A stretch of 28,275 nt of DNA. Origin: Ectocarpus siliculosus. Its lineage: Eukaryota > Sar > Phaeophyceae > Ectocarpales > Ectocarpaceae. Below are positions 12,102 through 26,013 of the stretch, in pieces. Each line of letters opens with the position of its first letter. Position 1 is the stretch's first letter. The stretch covers positions 323,884-352,158 of the forward strand of contig FN648564.1 in NCBI GenBank assembly GCA_000310025.1, in the 5' to 3' direction. A model generated the notes under the pieces. It was not told the DNA's origin, made no database searches, and saw only the letters and a list, made by a program, of their open reading frames with translations. The position numbers and the translations under genes were made by a program.

Positions 12102-15100
12102 GACTGATGAGCTAACCCAAACCGCCAGAGACAGGGCGACCGCTCTCGTTGAGGCCTACGTCCCCACCCCGGCAACCGAGGGGGACCTGCGCTGCATCGA
12201 GGAGAGACAGCTGCGGCACAAGGCCGGGGCGTCGTCTAGGTCTATGGGCGTGTCCCCTAACCCCTGCCGACACGGCTTTCCGCAGGCGTTTGCTTTCGAC
12301 CCCTGCGGGCACAAGGTGCGCTTTGGAAGCGGAACCCGCCTCGTCGTCTACGAAGCTCGTTCATGGGGTTGTGACTTGGTGCCTTTTGTGGTGTGTGTCA
12401 ACTTAGTCCGCCAAGCACAACAGCATCACTTCGTGGATTGAATTGATACATGGTGATATACAGCATGGAATCTGGCGTCTGGCAAGGCCGGAGAATGAGC
12501 GCGCGCGCGCGGTGCCCTGACACCCACGGCAATCAGAGGAGCCGAAGCGAGTAGGCGCTGTGAAGCCGGGTATCCCACAGGCAAGGGGTGCGTTTCTCGT
12601 CCCCCCACTCTCTACCCTTTTTCTCGGTGGTGGTCGAGTAGATAATCAATGTTGTGTGGGGTCGAGAACCCTCACTCCGCGCAAAGGACATGATCGCACC
12701 ACATGGTGTTAAAATCGGTCAAACACCTTACACATGCTTATAGCTGTCTCTTGAAGGGAAAGCACAAGAATATAAATTAAGTCATTTGCAGCTATCATCC
12801 ATATGCAAGGAAGTAAGCACAAGATGCCGAACACCCTCGGCACGATGCAGCGCACCGTCAATGCGACTCGCCGAATGCCTCACGGCGCTTCGCTCTTGGT
12901 GATGTGAGAGCCTGGTCAATTTGTAGGGGTGCGAGGTCAATGGCCCAACGACTCCGGCATGCGCTGCTGTGACTACCTCCCCCTTCCCCCGCGTCTCCCT
13001 TAGTTTGAAAATCGACCCGACAATGCTTGCCCCGTGCTGATGCGTCTTCGACCGTTGTTACTAGGTGTCCTCGGGGCTCTTCCGGCTGTCGTGCCCGCTA
13101 CTGGTGCAGGCCATCGATCTGCTGGAGGACGAGGGGGGGATAGAGGACGTCAACGCAAGGCTGGCCAGCGAAGAGGGGCTCCGTGAGGTGCGTGATGGCC
13201 CCGCCGAGTTCTGCCCTGTCCCGCGTGGCCCGAGGCACATTTGGGCGGTGTTGATGCGCTCGGGAATGTCGGCTGTCACGAGCAAGGTGGCGTGGTGACT
13301 CTTCGGCCACGGCAATTCACTGAGAAACTTACAGCAGTACATGATGTTAACCCTTTCCCGATTGTTTGTGTGCTTCCACACATGGCCGTACTCGTTAAGA
13401 GCGGGTGCGAGAGTGCTTACATTGCCCGACGGAGGGTGCTAGCCTCACCGAAGACAGAGCCTGCAGGGAGCATCTAGACAACGGGTTTGTGTGAAGTCCT
13501 GTTTGTGGATGTCATCCACCTTTGGTTATTTGTTTTGGACTGGAGGCAGCCCGCACAGGAGAATCTTGTGGTAGCCCCCCGCGCCCCCTAGTTTTGGGGT
13601 CTACGGACACTCTAGCTTCGATTTCTACATAAGTCGGCTCTTGTGCTCAGCGTTCTATGGCGTTGCTGATGAAGACAGCTCGGAAATTCAACGTAGCGGA
13701 TGTCCTGGGTCGTTCTGTATGTACGTGGTTATGGCCCTCTACTACGCAAGAATTTCGTACCACTTTCCGCAGACTTGAGTTGTTTTTGTTTCGTGAGGTT
13801 CACGTGCGTGCGTACGTGTCGGGCGTGGGTGTTTTGATGGCCCGGCTCTGCTGGGTACTGCTGTGCAGGACTTTATGGCCGTGAACTTGGCGCACGGCAT
13901 GCTGCGGCGACGTTTAGTGACTCCGGACAAGATGGGCTTGGTAGAGGAGACCATCGGCAAGGAGGGGGCTGGACGCTTTCTCGACAGCGGCATAACAGGC
14001 GTAACGCCCGGGAAGGTGAACACTCACCCTGAAGATGAGCTTGCCAGGATTCAGCAGGCGATCTGTCTGCGACAGTCCAAGATGACCTCTTGCCTGTCAT
14101 CTGGTAGAGACTAAACCACTCTTGTTCCAGCTACTAAAGCCAGCGAGTGTAGGAAACGGCCCGCACGGTAGTGGAAAGGTTTACCCGGGCAGCGGAAACT
14201 CTTCCGACCTGTAACCCCGGGAAACGTCCGCGCCGAAAACGGTGTTAAGAGAGGTGGGCTTTGAAAATTCACATGCGCGATGTCAAGCGCCCCAACGCAC
14301 GTGTTGCACGAGTATTCTTTTTCGTCCCACAATCACCAGGTTTGCTTTCGGTCATGCGGCGGTGTTACAGACTGCTGGTTTAGGCCTGAGGAACCGACGG
14401 GTTTTTGTTCATTGCCGTGGCGTTGTTCATCGGCCGCGCTCGGCCACAACCACAGGTGCGCGACGCCAAGTGCCTCCACGCGCACGTGGCGGACGCCCTC
14501 ATGCGCGGCAGAAGCGCCAACGCGATCGGGCGCGCGACGCTGGAGCTTCTCGAGGCCCGAGGGGTGCGGACGGACGGGGGCGACCGGTGCAGCGAGCAGT
14601 GCAACTATCTGGTGGAGGAGACGGCCGACAGCTGGAGGTGAGGGCCTTCAAGCGAAAGAGAGATAACGATGTCCGGTGCCCGCCGGTGTCCAATGGGTCA
14701 ACTAGCGTATGCGACACGAGATGACACATACACCAGTGATCAAGATCTTGGCGACGTCGGTCCGAACGAGCTCGAAAGCTCGAGCAGGTGGCTGGCAGTG
14801 AGAGCGCGGGATCAATTGCTTGGCTATAGTTTTTCGCCACGGTGCGATCTTGTTTCGTTGCTGTCCGCGTTTGCAGTTTGTAGCCAAGGTTCTCGACGGT
14901 GTCTTGGCCTAGTAGTCAACGGTGGTCGCGGCGGTGGTAGCGAACTCACCAGCCACATATCCCGTGTGGACCTAGGCTCGGGATTTTGATCCCCCTCGCG
15001 CCTCCGTTCCTTACGCCTTCCGTCCCCGACCCCAATTCGTTGTTCGTCTCAAGACTTCACAGCCCACTGCAACACCTACATTTGCAGTCTAGAGTAGAAT

Positions 15101-17131: not shown

Positions 17132-20100
17132 CTACTTGAGCGCCTCCGCAGTGATGGTGTACACCACGTAAGAAGCGTAGGTGAAGAGTAGGCTGTAGGC
17201 CAGCTTCGTGTTCATGTTCCATCTGCTCAGAATCAGGCTGACCACGAACATCAGCACCGCGCAAAAGAGGATGATGAGCGCCGTCGTCGCTCCCTCCGAG
17301 TCAACCTTTCACGAAGCGGCAGAGGAAACGCGAAGCAGGGTGCGGGGGGAGGAAGATTGGTACTCGTTGTCGTGCGCGACTGCAGCCTTCACAGGAGGCA
17401 GGGCATTGTCCATCAATATCAGGCCATTCCAAAATGGGTTGGTGCGTGCCGACGTTGCATTTTCGAGGCAGCCCTCGCACAACAGCGGGTTTCGTGAAAG
17501 GGAAGATGGAGGGCGTTCCAGGGACCAAAAAGAAAAAGGGTGGTTTGGGGGGGGGGGGGGGGGGTCCTGACATGGAAGGCTAAGCCTTGGGGAGGGAAAG
17601 GGCGGCGTTGGAGAAAAAGGAACACAACCACTGAGCCCTGGCTGGTTGGTAGCATGAGCAACGTGAAAATCTTCTCAGCGGTGCTGGAAGCTGTCTGTCT
17701 GCCATTTTGATCCTGAGTTTTGTGGGTGCTCGTGCGAACAACGAATGCCTCGACGACCTGACGCTTGAACATCAGCCGGGCGATTGTCGCTCGTATAAGC
17801 TTACCAACACATCTGTGATACTCATTGTTTGTATTTTTGTAGCTCGTCGCCTTGTGTCGTTCTCGCTGTGTGTTGCTGTTAGCAGCATGGAATATCGGGG
17901 AGGTCGTGCGTGATTGGTTGTGACGTGACGAGCGGGCTGAAGCGATACAACCTTCTCTCACGCGCACTTCGTTCTCTGCAGGTCGAGGAGGTTGGGCGAA
18001 GTGTTTGCTATGCATACCCATGTGCCTGTCGCCCTCTATACTCCCCCCTCACTCACCGCCGTAGGCTCGCCCGAAACGAGAGACGAGAACAACCACGGCC
18101 CCCCCAACCCAAGCAGGATGTTGAAGACGTTACTCCCAATAGCGTTCGCAATCGCCATCTGGCGCGGGACCGACGAAGCAGTAGCAAAGTGAAGGAATGG
18201 GAGGGTCGGGTTGGGAGAAGAAGAGGGATCTCCATACGGCGTTGACTGTGCTCCTTTTCACTATCAACGCGGAGAAAAGGAGAGGAACGGAGGGTGAGGG
18301 CGTGGCGGGATTCGGTTTGATAGAATTGTTGAACGTCCTTGACACAAACGCAGCTGCTGCTATGGTACAACGACTCGTCTTCGTAGGCATTCCTGCAGGT
18401 GATTGAACGTGCACCCTCCAGGGTGAGGCAAGACGGACGGTGGTTAAAAGCTCTGCCCATGGATTCGTAGTAGACGAAGGCTCGCCTCGCGAAGCCACAT
18501 CGCAAGAGGAGAAGATTGTCGTATTGAAAAATAAGTATTTTCGTCCATCGTTTGTGTTTACAGATCCAACCTAGGAGTGTGAATGGATACAGCGTTTAGT
18601 TACGATCCGCTTAAAACTCAGTCTCGTGAGTGTGAGGCGGTAAGTGGTGTTTGGGGACTCGCATCGCCTCTTCCGTGTATGTGTGGGTGCGTCGGCTCGT
18701 GAGTGGGAAGGAGGGGCAGGGCTCCTACCGATGCTTCCCCGTTCTTGGCAGCGATCATGGAGCCGATCATGTCCGGCACTGACGTGCCAACCGCCAGCAC
18801 GAGAACCCCCATCACGATTGCGCTTACGCCTAAAATACACGCTGCACCCGTCGCCAGTGTCACCTGAAGGAGGGGGTAGGGGGCGAAGAAATGGGGGTAG
18901 TGAGAACAAGGGATGGTGGTCCTGGGTATCGACAAACAGCTGCAAACGAAGTTGGTCTTTTGTCGGATAAAGCAGTCATTGCGCGAGGAGGGGGTTGCAT
19001 CGAGTAGGTTTGTGTCCAATGTCCAGCTTGGACACGCATCTCTCCCAGCTTGTTTTTTTGTCTGGTCGTCCGTTTCCACACAGTGTGCGACAGCAATGAG
19101 AGTTGATGACACAGGTTCTCTCGAACTGTGGGGACGCCGCGCTGATCTCTTTCTACATTACACATTCACAACAGTGTTTCCGAGAGGAATTCCTGGCGCC
19201 CCCCCCTTTCACCGCGTTTCGCGACTGACTCACCATGTAGCTGCTGATAATACTAATCCACGAAATGCTCATGACGAAGGTGAGGATGTAGTACTTCTCG
19301 TACTCCGGCCTGGAGCAGTCTGGCACGGTGAGGCTGAGCCCGACCAAGAACGGCAGGCCGAAGACGAAGAGAAAACGCTCCATCCACCCCTCGGGCCATG
19401 CCAGAAGGTCGTCGCCCTGCTGTCGGTCACGCAACAAAAGCACGGAACGATTTTCTGTGGTCGTGAGAGATCTGACGCGATACAACTACTATTGGGAGTA
19501 GGGCAATGAACGACAATCCTTGAGTGTGATGAAGGCAGGCAATGATGAAAGCGTGCCACACTTCCCGCGGCCAGAGAACGAATGCACGGCGCCTCGTGGT
19601 GCTCCGTTCGTGGTAGCAATTCGACAAAATGAGCACCTGGAAACAAACGTCTGTGGCGTTATGGGACAGCAGAAGGCATTGCGCCATAGAGCAAGAGGAA
19701 GGCATTGTCCATCCCTCCCTCATGGTCAAGCTATTAGTGTTATTATTACGTCAAGAACAGCCTGTTTTTGAAGAATATCGTAGCCATCTTGGCATGTTTC
19801 GTGACCCCCATTTCAGCAGACAGATAACTGCTTACCGTTTCTTCCCCGACGATCTGATAGCCTCCCGACGTTCCTTCAGGGGCTGCCTTGTTCCCTTCCA
19901 CCACGGCCGCAGCCCCACTTTTGGCTGCCACCGTTCCCTCTGTATATGCTCCTCCTCCGGATCCTCCCGTCTGCCCATCCCAGCTGAGCCTTGCCGTCGA
20001 GCCCTAGGCATGATTTCACACACAGCCGTGTAAATCAAAGAATATCGCAGTGATAATTGCATATCTACGAGTTTGGTGTGGAAGTGGATCGATGTTTTTT

Positions 20101-23100
20101 TTGTAATATGGCGTCTCTCTGTTGTTCTGGCCTATTCAAAACGAAGCGTTGGTGTTGCGAAAAATGCTTGACCATACGTAGATGATTTTACTAAATCACC
20201 TTCTTGACCGACGCAACCGCGGCTGCGGCGGCCGCAGCCATGGGATCTTCGTTCCCCTCGTTGGCAGCAACGTAGGAAGCTCTTCTACCCTGCGACGTCC
20301 GCCGCTCCTGTCGTTCGGCGCACATATATCCATCAACATCCAACAAGAGAAGCGGAGCATCACGTTGCTGCCCGGCCCAAGCACGGAGGGAGTTAAAGCG
20401 TATGTGACGAATTTTCATCGGAAAGTGTGTCGTTTTTTCCAACCTCAAAATTCTTGTTCGAACTACACTGATGATTTGTTGCGAAAGGCCATGGCACCTC
20501 TAAGAGCCCTAGGACCGCACACATACCCCAGAAACGTTAGGAGCACGCGCTGGACGAGATCTATGCACGGGACAAGCGCTGCGTTTTGGTCGCCAAATCT
20601 CCGTACCCATGGTGGAAGAGAACGTGGAAAGATTTGAGTGGTTCCCCGGCGCAACTCTGCCGGGGTGCCAGCTTACACGCCGTGACGGAAGCAGTTACTC
20701 CCCACTCACAGTCACCGCAATGCGAGGTCAATGGTCAAACGACGACGGCATGCACGACTAATGAGTACCCCCCCCCACACACATTCCCCACAACAGCGCA
20801 GGCAACATCCTGAGTACAGCTTTACGTAGGGTTCTCGTGGCGCGACAATTGATACACGAGGTTCGTGACTGTTTTGAAGGGGGGGGCGGCGATGTCTCAA
20901 TAGCTATCTCCATTGAAATACTGACCGTGCTCGGGGTGTACGAAAAGAAAAACAGTGATAATGCTTGCATGCTATGATGCGAGAAAGACCAGAACCTCCC
21001 CTCTTTCAGCGTTGACGACATTCACGAACGTGGTTGCACAGTACAAAACGAGTAACTTACTCGACGATGACGACAGCAGTTCTCCGGCAAATAATTGTCG
21101 TACGCAACTGCTTACATATCTCGATAAGCGCTGCCCCGAAACACACGGACAGCGAAACACCACGCTTTTGCCCGAAGACCGGGCTGCCGATGAAGCAAAT
21201 ATGTAAGAACAACCCCCACGTCATCCTTACAACTACAGCGTTCTAGGCGTTACCTTCTCTCTATCTTTGCTTGTTAAGAAAACAACACGACCAAAGCCTT
21301 TCGTAATAAGGTATACTCCTCAACAATATTTCTTACGCAACAAAACGAAACAGGGAAGTGCGCAGCATGTAGCTTGCCGACCTACTGCTGTACTTGTCGG
21401 GGGGCTAACGCCCAGGGCGCGATCGTTTAGAACGCCTTTTTGTTCGTGCATTGTATTTCACGCTTTACGCACCCTCGTGTACACTCGTCGCATCCTGCCA
21501 TGGCGTACGTGCCCAGCTACAGAAATAGCCTCTCTCCTGCTTATCGTTTTTGTTTTCGTGCTCACCCCTGTAAATATAGTGACTAAATGTGCGGCCCCAG
21601 CGGCTCGTGCATCTGACTCTATTGGAGGTGAAAGCCCCCTGCTATCGTACTCGACACTTATATATATCGAATGGATGCTTGTCCTAAAATACTTCCCCTT
21701 GCGAACCGGCTTAGGGTACCTGAAGACACACTAACTAACCCTTGCTCAGATGATCGCTAAAGGAAGTGGATAAACGGCTGGATTGCACGGCGGCGGCAGC
21801 GGTGGCAGCGTCGATAGGGGCACCGCCCAACGCGAAGACCCCTGCCTCCGCTACTTCGGTCGTTACAGTACACATTTCCACAAGAATGTCACAAGCAAAG
21901 CCGTTCCCACGACGTGTAATGGACTTATCTGGACCCTCAAATCGTAGCACAGCGAACATCACTCCGTTCCACCGTTAGACTTGACCTACACCGTCCAAAC
22001 GCTTGCCCGAAACACATACCAGGTACGCGGCAGTATCCTTCACAGAAAGGCGCAAACGCACCTGCAACAGCGATACCCGCAGCGCGCGAGACGCCCTTCG
22101 GTTGAGATGCTGCGAACCCCTGCGACCGCCACCATCACCTTCCCCTTCCTCGCTCCCCTGATCACCGCCGTCGACGGAACCGCGCCGGGCGGAAGAACGT
22201 CTGCGCGTTGTTGCGGTGCTGTTTCCATCACCGACGCCCCCGGCTATAAACGGCTTTGGCGGCTCTTCTCCTGCCTTTAGTCGTTGCTGGTTGCGTTGTT
22301 GGGCGCACATTTGTGATGTACATCAAGGGACGTTGTACGTTGTGCATTGTGCGTACCAAATATTAAGCAGTAGGATATCTTTCTTGTGTGGTAGAGGGAG
22401 ATTTGGCACAAAGCCAGCATCCATACAATCGCTTCGCACCGATGTGGGTGCCCTCTCCATCAAAGGTTAAGGGTCCAGGCCACACCGGGCGTACAACTCA
22501 CATTTCGCCTCCTACCCCCAGTCTACGAAAAACGTTTGCGCTTTCTTCATGTCCTGCCTCCGACTATTCACGGCAGTCTTTTGGACTCACAGCTGCTGCC
22601 TTTTCCAACGGCTCCAGCGCTTCTAACTCCGGTCCCCCGACCGTCGGCAGCACCGTCCCCTAGAAGTGTACGGCACGGGAACATGGGACAAGATGAGGAT
22701 TTGACGATGACAAGGATGGTGCGGGCGGAGTTTTGCAACGACAGAGAGCCGAGAAGAAGGTGAACGAGGGAGGCTTAGAACAGACGAGGACGGCAAAAGG
22801 GCGTGCATTGCACGGGGTGAGGGACTGTTTGATGACACAGTACGATTGTGCGGGATGCTCAGCCTGCTCTACTCGAGGCCTGACAAGGCCAGTCGCAGAA
22901 GACCTACGTACATAGGACAAGGAGAAGATGCAGACGAGGTTGTTCGAGGATTAGCGTGCTGTGAGATCATGAAAGAACGCAGGCGACAACTTGTTGGTGG
23001 TTGACTTGTGGACAAACCCCGTTTCAGCGCGTGAAAGGGTATTAAGAGGTCTCCAGGCGCGAGGCGGTGTTCCCACCTTAGGAGCGGAGCACATCTCGAG

Positions 23101-26013
23101 AATCCTCGAGTTGTAGACCATGAACACGATGTACAGCCCATATGCCAACACCATGATCAATGCCTGCAGGAGGCACAGAGACGTTCATGACGCACGCACG
23201 ACGAGAGCCGCGGCAGCAAGGAAACGAGCTGTAAACGTGACGGCGCTTCGATGGAAATAGCAGAGAACAAAGGGCGACGGAGATACTAAATCTCAACAGG
23301 AACAGGAGGAGTATGACCAATGGGCCGGAAGGATATAAAGTTGCATATCCATCCTCATTGATGTGCGGATTGAGGTACCCATTTTTTTTCACCACGTTGT
23401 TGTTGGTGTAACGGTGGCGGTAACCGCGTTGTCAATTTCGTGCATGCACGCAACTCCTCCTTCAAAGGATCCACAAGGCTGGCCGCCCGAAAGGTGCAAC
23501 AACCCCGTCAAGAAAGCAGAAGGTGCTAACCACCTACCTCCCACCACCGAATCTCGCCATCGCTGGCTGCCGCCACCAGCATGAAGATGCTGCAGGTGTA
23601 GAACGACACGTCTCGAGCCACGACACGGTGGTCAATCGTGCCGGAGGTGCCGCTCTTCACGGCGACCGCCGCCGATAGGGCCACGATAACGAGCACGTTG
23701 AACATGGCCGACCTGAGGCGATAAACGACACAAGAAAGGGCCAGGAGAAGCGGTCGGCGGTCGTATGTTGGGGATCTTGATTTGCGTTGTTGTGAGTTTC
23801 GGTGCGGTTCAGCATATCGCATATTCTTCGCTGGGCTTTTTGGACTTGGGTGCGCTGCGTGTGTTGCCTCCGTTCCTTCAACTTGTTGTTAGGTTCGTTT
23901 CTTGTAACGGAGCGGTGATGACTGTGCGTCCGAGGGTGACTGAACGAGAAACAGGTACCAAGCGGAGAGGGGGCTCTGTTGTTCGTGTTGTTACACCGAG
24001 TCGGTGTCTGATGTTTCTCTTTGATATGCAGGCCTGCAATTCTCACGCTCTCCCGGTTTTGCTTTTTTTCGCGTTGTGTTTTAACGGTCTCGTCCACGGC
24101 CTGTCTCCACCGACTCTTCACACTTATCCGCCCAAACCTAAAATGGTGTCGACGTCGTCAGCAATTCGCAGGGATGATACAATCTGCAACCAATACAATT
24201 GTAAGGTGTTCCATGTATCTTTGTAGCTGAGCGACATACAACTACGCACTTGAAGTTCGACCGTACATTTCCCAAAGGAACAGGTTTATTGGATGTAAAT
24301 ATTGTAGCTGCTCGCGATATGTTCGTAATAACAGTACCGTGATTGTACGAGTGATGGCACCCCCCGTGATAGACATTGATAGGTTGATTGATCTATATCC
24401 TAGAGGGCAACACTGCAGAAAAGAGTGGTTTAGGAAAGATCTCGTCGAGAGTTTTCCTCAGACCAATTGGTCGGTTATTGGTTGGTTTTCGCGACCTCTT
24501 GGCTGTGGAGCAATCACGCTGGTCGACCTGATTGTGTAGCGCGGTGCTTTGAGAATGAACTTGCCCTACGATGGTGCCCACGCCGATCGAGTTGGAAGGA
24601 CCGAAGACATCCGCAATTGATGTGAACAACTCCGGAGCCGATGATCCGGCCGCGAGAAACGTTGCCCCCGCCACGTCCGGGGTCAGCCCGAGCACCTGTT
24701 TGTTGTGTTTGTTGATGGCGGTGGAGGTGGCCGAAATGCGTTGGACGAAACGCACAAGGCAACGAAGCAAGAAATAAATGTAAATGTCTTTTCGTGCTTG
24801 GAATACTACTGTATGGCCCCAGCTTGTGTGTGAGTCGGGTGCACTGCTGTGTGTACTCTGATCTCTACATAGATAGGCGAGACCATAATGATATCAGATG
24901 TTCACCTAATATTTCGGCAAGTACTCTAGCGAACCGATGGTACAAAGTGTGTGCGTATCCTCTTATAAAATTGAAGTGAATACACATCTACAAGTAAGTG
25001 AGTATGGGTGACATGATTAGCATCTTCGTAGGCACAATGTGTTCGATCACACCATTTCCCTAATTCCCTGCCTCGGTACAGCAGTGTTCTGCCTGAGGGA
25101 CAACACGCGACTATTTGCTGTAGCACAGGGTACGTGTCCAGATACAACGTCCAGCCATTGTTTTCAAGCATTTGGCATTGCTTTCAAGCACTACTGCTGT
25201 AAGCTACATAAGAGCTCCGTCCACGGGAAACCTCTAACGAGCACGGCACGATATCTCTGCACCTCTTTTCGTGCCAAGCAAGGTGTAGTGCATTGAGTGC
25301 TCCATTTATTACGTGCCTGCAGAAAGAATAGACGTACATACCTCTGAGATTTTCTCCAAGGATGCCTGAAAAAATTCGTCGCAGACTATCGCCAGCCCGT
25401 TGAACGTGAACAATATCGCTACCACGAGCAGCATCACCGTACCCGCACCCCCGCCCGAGAAGGCATTGTCCGCGCATGCCGCGGCTGCTCCCTCCTCTTC
25501 TTCCTCGTCTGCCATTCCCTCTACCGACCCTTGCTGATCTTCGTCGCTGGTGGCAAGAAGCAAACGATTCAAAACGCCACTGCTATGATCGCCGGCGCCG
25601 CCGCCGGCCACGGCGACTGAAACATACCGCTCTCCGATCTTGCTTGCGTGAAGTCCTTCTGCTGCTGCTTTTTTCAACGGCACCCCAGCCATCTCCTTCC
25701 TCTCCCCCGATATTCTAGCTTGGGTTCTCAACGTTGTCGTTCTTGCTTCTATTGTCTCCGTCCGATGCGCCTCTGTTGAGCTTGAAGCCCATACGATGAC
25801 CACCCCTGCCCCGACTACCCCGACCGTATACACAAGTCTCAACAGGCGAATCCTTCGCCGGTAGGCTGTTGTTGCTCTGCCTCCCAGTTTTCGTCTCTGT
25901 GGTGGTCTCGATTCGCAACCGTTCCTCTGCCGACGCCCGCGCCGGCAACCGACAACATCGTCGCCGTGTGTATCTCTGCTGCCATCGAGGTCCCTCCTTG
26001 ATGCCGAGAACAT
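17132..26013 (-). CDS. Na+/Ca2+(-K+) exchanger, NCKX/SLC24 type, twelve exons
   Basis: Predicted to exchange Ca2+ for Na+ (or H+) across a membrane. Exons in transcript order: 26013-25342, 24695-24565, 23712-23538, 23163-23077, 22659-22591, 22286-22062, 20289-20200, 19970-19836, 19416-19234, 18863-18729, 18158-18057, 17305-17132; about 725 residues. The N-terminal half has a first hydrophobic helix ([18 protein letters not shown]), then [17 protein letters not shown]. Alpha repeat 1 is [19 protein letters not shown] (Glu246) with GVGTIVGSAMFN. Alpha repeat 2 is [15 protein letters not shown] (Asp620) with [25 protein letters not shown] and [12 protein letters not shown] precede alpha 2. The loop between halves (about 350-530) is acidic, Ser- and Arg-rich. 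Ten of eleven introns are phase 0; intron 2 has a GC donor. The start is the first in-frame ATG; GTG at 26127 was not used. Loop exons 6 and 8 have the least certain acceptors; exon 8 could begin at 20003. Confidence 0.9.
17547..17564 (+). repeat. 18-base guanine homopolymer in the last exchanger intron
   Basis: An uninterrupted G run on the plus strand lies within intron 17306-18056, so it is a C run on the sense strand of the exchanger transcript. It lies about 240 bases upstream of the final-exon acceptor. Confidence 0.85.
20644..20790 (+). repeat. Dispersed repeat copy 3 with an adjacent hairpin, inside an exchanger intron
   Basis: A perfect 7-bp inverted repeat, CCCCGGC (20644-20650) and GCCGGGG (20659-20665), is followed at 20701-20790 by GCGAGGTCAATGGTC, AAACGACGACGGCATGCACG, ACTAATGAGTA and a C run. 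The last blocks match copies 1 and 2. It lies in intron 20290-22061, antisense to the exchanger. Whether the hairpin belongs to the repeat is unclear because copies 1 and 2 lack it. Confidence 0.65.
24559..24564 (-). other. Non-canonical GC splice donor (GCAAGT) of exchanger intron 2
   Basis: On the minus strand exon 2 ends ATCGTAGG and the intron opens GCAAGT. Exon 3 begins after CTCAG with G-TCG-GCC-ATG. Only this join restores the conserved GTIVGSAMFN motif of alpha repeat 1 in frame. There is no GT within the required phase. Apart from the C, the GCAAGT context is a strong U1 match, as is typical for GC-AG introns. Confidence 0.85.

Follow-up and report, generated by a model that had tools for sequence, protein, structure and literature searches.

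An NCKX-like exchanger gene of the brown alga Ectocarpus siliculosus with asparagine at the middle cation site

In the brown alga Ectocarpus siliculosus, an exchanger gene of NCKX type carries asparagine at the column where NCKX proteins have the aspartate of their middle cation site (Smid). The question it raises is whether the encoded protein exchanges Ca2+ without carrying K+. Kang in 2005 reportedly found that substitution of Asp575 makes NCKX2 independent of K+, and asparagine at this position specifically is said to abolish the K+ dependence of NCKX2. The gene lies in a window of 28,275 nucleotides, the whole stretch of DNA analysed here (assembly GCA_000310025.1, contig FN648564.1, positions 323,884 to 352,158). 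With a probability of about 0.65, its product is predicted to exchange Na+ for Ca2+ on a scaffold of NCKX type, having the pocket of a K+-independent NCX and a middle site devoid of a carboxylate.

The whole gene occupies 17132-26013 on the minus strand, and its spliced model contains 12 coding exons for 733 amino acids, joined across ten GT-AG introns and one GC-AG intron with no internal stops. Exon 1 (25342-26013), for which the start codon was picked from the open frame, encodes the N-terminal part, as far as the beginning of the first exchanger half. Exon 2 (24565-24695) holds the alpha-1 repeat with the motif SSAPELF, including the catalytic Glu, E246, and exon 3 (23538-23712) supplies the remainder of alpha-1 (GSAMFN) as well as a downstream part. 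The intervening GC-AG intron, with donor gcaagt at 24564-24559, splits the repeat between GTIVG and SAMFN. Exon 4 (23077-23163) follows in the spliced model. Exons 5-8 (22659-22591, 22274-22062, 20289-20200 and 20003-19836; span 19836-22659) encode a hydrophilic linker and have the least certain boundaries of the model, since splice consensus and the open frame were the sole guides to them, but all four lie outside the alpha repeats. The second exchanger half begins in exon 9 (19234-19419), and the alpha-2 repeat is divided between exon 10 (18729-18863; GTSVPD, D628) and exon 11 (18057-18158; GSNVFN). Both alpha-2 exons are given by the spliced model as well as by Pfam Na_Ca_ex, which matches each separately (G000:C464:342606-342746, E 6.2e-6; 341940-342047, E 1.8e-4). 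Exon 12 (17132-17305) encodes the C-terminal portion and the stop codon. All exons are on the minus strand, and helix assignments are by homology. Searching the assembly at the protein level gave no further copy of this gene.

The residue in question is encoded at 18120-18122, where the plus strand reads gtt and the minus strand, within exon 18158-18057, reads AAC. Once the exons are joined at the CAG|ATG acceptor, this Asn655 stands exactly 27 residues past Asp628 of GTSVPD. An earlier sequence-only reading had likewise placed AAC at these bases, 27 residues past the GTSVPD aspartate, and had held that Glu246 of SSAPELF and the aspartate of GTSVPD are both kept; the spliced model and the minus-strand reading bear out each point. 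Its numbering stands for Glu246, and its Asp620 and Asn647 are here D628 and N655, the linker exons differing and the spacing being the same. Aligned with sequences from the PDB, Asn655 shares its column with the Asn in GSNAVN of NCX1 and the Asp in GSNIAD of NCX_Mj. The residue thus does sit at the column of NCKX2 Asp575 and NCX_Mj Asp240, as had been proposed, and with Asn at Smid the protein lacks the carboxylate found at the K+ site of NCKX.

By sequence, the gene is almost certainly NCKX-like. The full-length protein belongs to the CaCA superfamily, since it matches PF01699 (Na_Ca_ex) in two stretches with 187.4 bits (core, 187.1) against a cut-off of 24.9; no other domain exceeds its Pfam cut-off in the full-length protein, and Calx-beta was not found. 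The best NCBIfam model by score is TIGR00927 (NCKX), with 277.6 bits full-length, under its curated cut-off of 710.1 bits for 1209 positions, and 253 for the core. Next come TIGR00367 (bacterial calcium/sodium antiporter), which gives 235.8 full-length and 219.9 for the core and passes its curated cut-off of 179.65, and TIGR00845 (NCX1), which at 86.8 and 91.2 does not reach its curated cut-off of 679.85. This ranking is the same for full length and core. The protein resembles SLC24/NCKX in its long linker and in the alpha-1 GSSAPE and alpha-2 GTSVPD signatures, as the available part of PMC8366772 gives them for NCKX. It differs in having Asn where the NCKX Smid Asp sits (the Asp575 column), and so is without the third pocket carboxylate. 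An NCKX-type gene in an alga would not be new, because NCX and NCKX family proteins have both been reported in chromalveolate algae (PMC3679957, in excerpt).

The assembly contains a second NCKX-like gene, on G000:C225 (exons 29543-28206 and 26512-25961), that reads GTSVPD...GSNVFD. Its core is 59 % identical to that of the window protein and, at 262.8 bits, is also under the TIGR00927 cut-off. This paralogue with its retained Asp, which the sequence-only reading could not have seen, strengthens the case for a meaningful difference at Asn655. The C225 gene (25961-29543) has one intron in its modelled coding part, at a site without an intron in the 12-exon window gene; it may be a retrocopy that has gained an intron, or may have lost introns. 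Contamination was considered as a source of C225. Its G+C content of 0.537 is close to that of the window (0.535) and the gene has an intron, but a 1145-base piece of C225 has only short weak matches, to one other contig (C53). The data are consistent with, but not proof of, C225 lying in the same genome as the window gene.

The ligand columns of the window protein, defined after NCX_Mj, read A,S,S,E,S,N / A,T,S,D,S,N and are identical to those of SLC8/NCX1 (TIGR00845; PDB 8jp0, 8sgi) at 12 of 12, with overall similarity to NCX1 being weak. The alpha-1 Asn ligand column is presumably that of NCX_Mj N81. Between the two algal paralogues, 11 of the 12 columns are common, and the twelfth is Asn655 versus Asp. 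The NCKX2 counterparts of the ligand columns are listed as A181, G184, S185, E188, S211, A541, T544, S545, D548, S571 and D575, along with P547 (PMC12150658, in excerpt). P547 alters nothing in the comparison, because that position is conserved in both paralogues as well as in NCX1. The ligand frame is also shared with NCX_Mj (PDB 3v5s, 3v5u), although NCX_Mj has T50, E213 and D240 where the window protein has S, D and N; the same three changes, T50S, E213D and D240N, are described for eukaryotic NCX relative to NCX_Mj (PMC8366772, PMC9820601). No acidic substitute occurs at the other 11 ligand columns, and visual comparison of the alpha repeats with those of the C225 paralogue showed none either. 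The preference of each model for the column was read by exchanging the single residue between Asp and Asn in scoring copies on two backgrounds. TIGR00927 (NCKX) scores Asp 2.9 bits above Asn on both backgrounds, TIGR00845 (NCX1) scores Asn above Asp by 2.8 and 2.7 bits, PRK10734 (YrbG) scores Asn 2.1 bits above Asp on both, and TIGR00367 places Asp 0.1 and 0.3 bits above Asn. The column therefore separates NCKX from NCX models, with the general antiporter model indifferent.

Across relatives, Asn at this column is not rare. Among aligned PDB sequences it is found in NCX1 and NCLX, with Asp in NCX_Mj; none of the ten different PDB sequences that matched with E no higher than 0.1, the best five of which were aligned, is named NCKX. 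In 54 prokaryotic and phage relatives, counted after dropping L029 as an exact duplicate of L007, the column holds Asn in 46, Gln in six and Asp in two (39, six and two of 47 with one representative per group of >=80 % identity). The sample is uneven. Two genome searches each had matches in 34 of the 61 genomes covered; among the best 20 loci of each, Asn was read in 20/20 for the first search, and Asn in 13/19 and Gln in 6/19 for the second. Plasmid loci, from 11 of the 63 plasmid records with matches, have Asn in 10/11 and Asp in 1/11, and the single phage locus, from 1 of 11 such records, has Asp. A conserved-peptide search of genome contigs gave 116 fitting stretches, of which three are bacterial relatives, all with Asn; in viral contigs, 13 stretches fit the pattern and none was confirmed as a relative. 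All 30 relatives above the TIGR00367 cut-off have Asn, and in this respect the YrbG-type antiporters agree with the window protein, while differing from it in having Glu for Asp in the alpha-2 signature (50 of 54 relatives) and Thr at ligand 50 (49 of 54). The six Gln proteins (L042, L044-L048) also lack the alpha-1 Asn ligand and are under the TIGR00367 cut-off; they belong to the phylum of genome G002 and have further altered ligand columns. The sequence-only reading, by which Asn replaces Asp here, was thus correct as to the residue but not as to the rarity it implied.

This distribution bears on whether the window gene ever lost an Asp. A midpoint-rooted FastTree tree was built from both paralogues and the 54 relatives. 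In it the window and C225 proteins cluster with support of 1.0, and the pair joins, with support of 0.92, three exchangers of haloarchaea and a phage protein. The haloarchaeal and phage members have the Ser50/Asp213 pocket, the phage protein with Ser for Ala at one column. Within the group of six, C225, L052 and the phage protein L060 have Asp, and L050, L056 and the window gene have Asn, such that on this tree the column has changed at least two times. The haloarchaeal sodium:calcium antiporters L050 and L056 are identical to the window protein at the 12 columns, Asn included, and L052 has the same set with Asp; the three are only 25-29 % identical to the window protein. As plasmid-encoded exchangers, L050, L052 and L056 combine a eukaryote-type pocket (Ser, Asp) with variation between Asp and Asn. 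L060, from Pseudoalteromonas phage J2-1_QLiu-2017, is an exchanger-like gene annotated as a sodium:calcium symporter, with an Asp-type pocket. A first alternative is that Asn is ancestral to the branch and nothing was lost here, the Asp seen in the paralogue and in animal NCKX having arisen elsewhere. The predominance of Asn among the relatives, with or without grouping at 80 %, speaks for such a history, and when changes were counted by hand, with Asn in the outgroup, one gain plus two reversals came out as costly as three separate gains of Asp. Animal NCKX, however, have Asp at the column (PMC8366772, available part), and if they fall outside the paralogue pair, a loss in the window gene is favoured. 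We regard a retained Asn as a serious contender that is nonetheless the less expected history. It competes with a loss as history and not as function, since the protein would still act as an NCX-type exchanger.

A second alternative concerns function, namely that the exchanger is K+-dependent despite its Asn, by way of other pocket groups. The K+ dependence of NCKX has been ascribed to one alpha-2 Asp (PMC10227063), and the sequence-only reading took that residue as the giver of K+ dependence. The inference is a reasonable one that goes too far: the NCKX model prefers Asp, but NCX_Mj, whose D240 is the equivalent of the NCKX Smid carboxylate (PMC8366772), bears Asp and is K+-independent; Asp is therefore not sufficient. 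Two reviews describe the carboxylate at Smid as one that in NCKX could lose its proton and take up Na+ or K+, whereas in NCX_Mj it is protonated and binds neither (PMC8366772, PMC9820601). The reason for the difference is nevertheless described as unclear in the reviews, as is the basis of Smid selectivity (PMC9820601). Accounts of D240 also conflict, with one naming it as one of six side chains that NCX_Mj needs for transport (PMC8366772) and another reporting kinetics of D240N mutants comparable to the parent (PMC9820601). The insufficiency of Asp and the unclear selectivity leave room for K+ dependence without it, as do the many NCKX2 substitutions that shift ion affinities (PMC12150658). 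Against it are the lack of any acidic substitute nearby, the match of the ligand columns to NCX1, NCX being K+-independent (PMC12150658), and the literature on Asp575 (PMC10227063). We consider K+ dependence by other groups unlikely. A third alternative, a one-base sequencing or assembly error with GAC as the true codon, would take a single change in a gene that is single-copy in the assembly and has an Asp-bearing paralogue, but it is highly improbable, as Asn is a common natural state and the flanking residues also differ from the paralogue, which argues against a miscopied paralogue; the codon is very probably Asn in truth.

The reading preferred here remains an NCX-like pocket on an NCKX scaffold, and transport by the window exchanger is quite likely K+-independent. 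With no carboxylate at Smid, K+ and the fourth Na+ would not be held there, and Ca2+ would sit between E246 and D628 and trade against about 3 Na+, with no K+ carried along. The C225 sister, which has Asp, is probably K+-dependent, and would be the K+-coupled partner, moving 4 Na+ for 1 Ca2+ and 1 K+. Against this proposal, removal of the Asp might impair activity and not K+ coupling alone, and the behaviour of NCKX2 mutants need not transfer to so distant a scaffold.

An SLC8-type exchanger was not found by a search of the assembly with the NCX1 model, which matches single exons and scores just the top candidates and may therefore miss one. The search gave four matches, three in the window and C225 genes and one on C17. 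The genome is likely to be without an SLC8 exchanger. The C17 match is an open stretch (G000:C17:534481-534855) aligned to NCX1-model positions 491-612, a part of the model flanked by the alpha-repeat regions. An exon at G000:C24:3752125-3752373 is NCLX-like by its motifs GNSTGD and GGPLFN, with TIGR00367 as its best model at 45.5 bits. Two Na_Ca_ex matches on C20 were set aside as a CAX-type gene by eye, in a stretch that includes a run of N.

As a tentative proposal, a duplicated NCKX-like exchanger may have been split by one ligand change into a K+-coupled form (Asp, C225) and a K+-uncoupled form (Asn, window), with the latter taking the place of an SLC8 exchanger that is likely missing. 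Such a switch of K+ coupling may have arisen more than once in nature, given the like difference between haloarchaeal L052 and L050 or L056. Carriage of K+ by NCKX is only partly explained, because NCX_Mj with the same Asp does not carry K+. Two paralogues of one genome that have 11 of 12 pocket columns in common, along with the haloarchaeal parallel, offer a natural test of the role of the residue in K+ coupling outside animals. Literature searches returned no paper on this residue in algae among the matches listed, with subscription journals mostly outside the search, and none for the motif strings combined with NCKX.

Elsewhere in the window, the plus strand at 13065-14641 has open stretches (13065-13295 and 14390-14638) that match Pfam DUF501 and resemble exons of a single gene. 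Upstream of the exchanger gene, the minus strand at 28275-27180 holds degraded pieces in multiple frames that, by eye, look like the end of a tyrosine recombinase.
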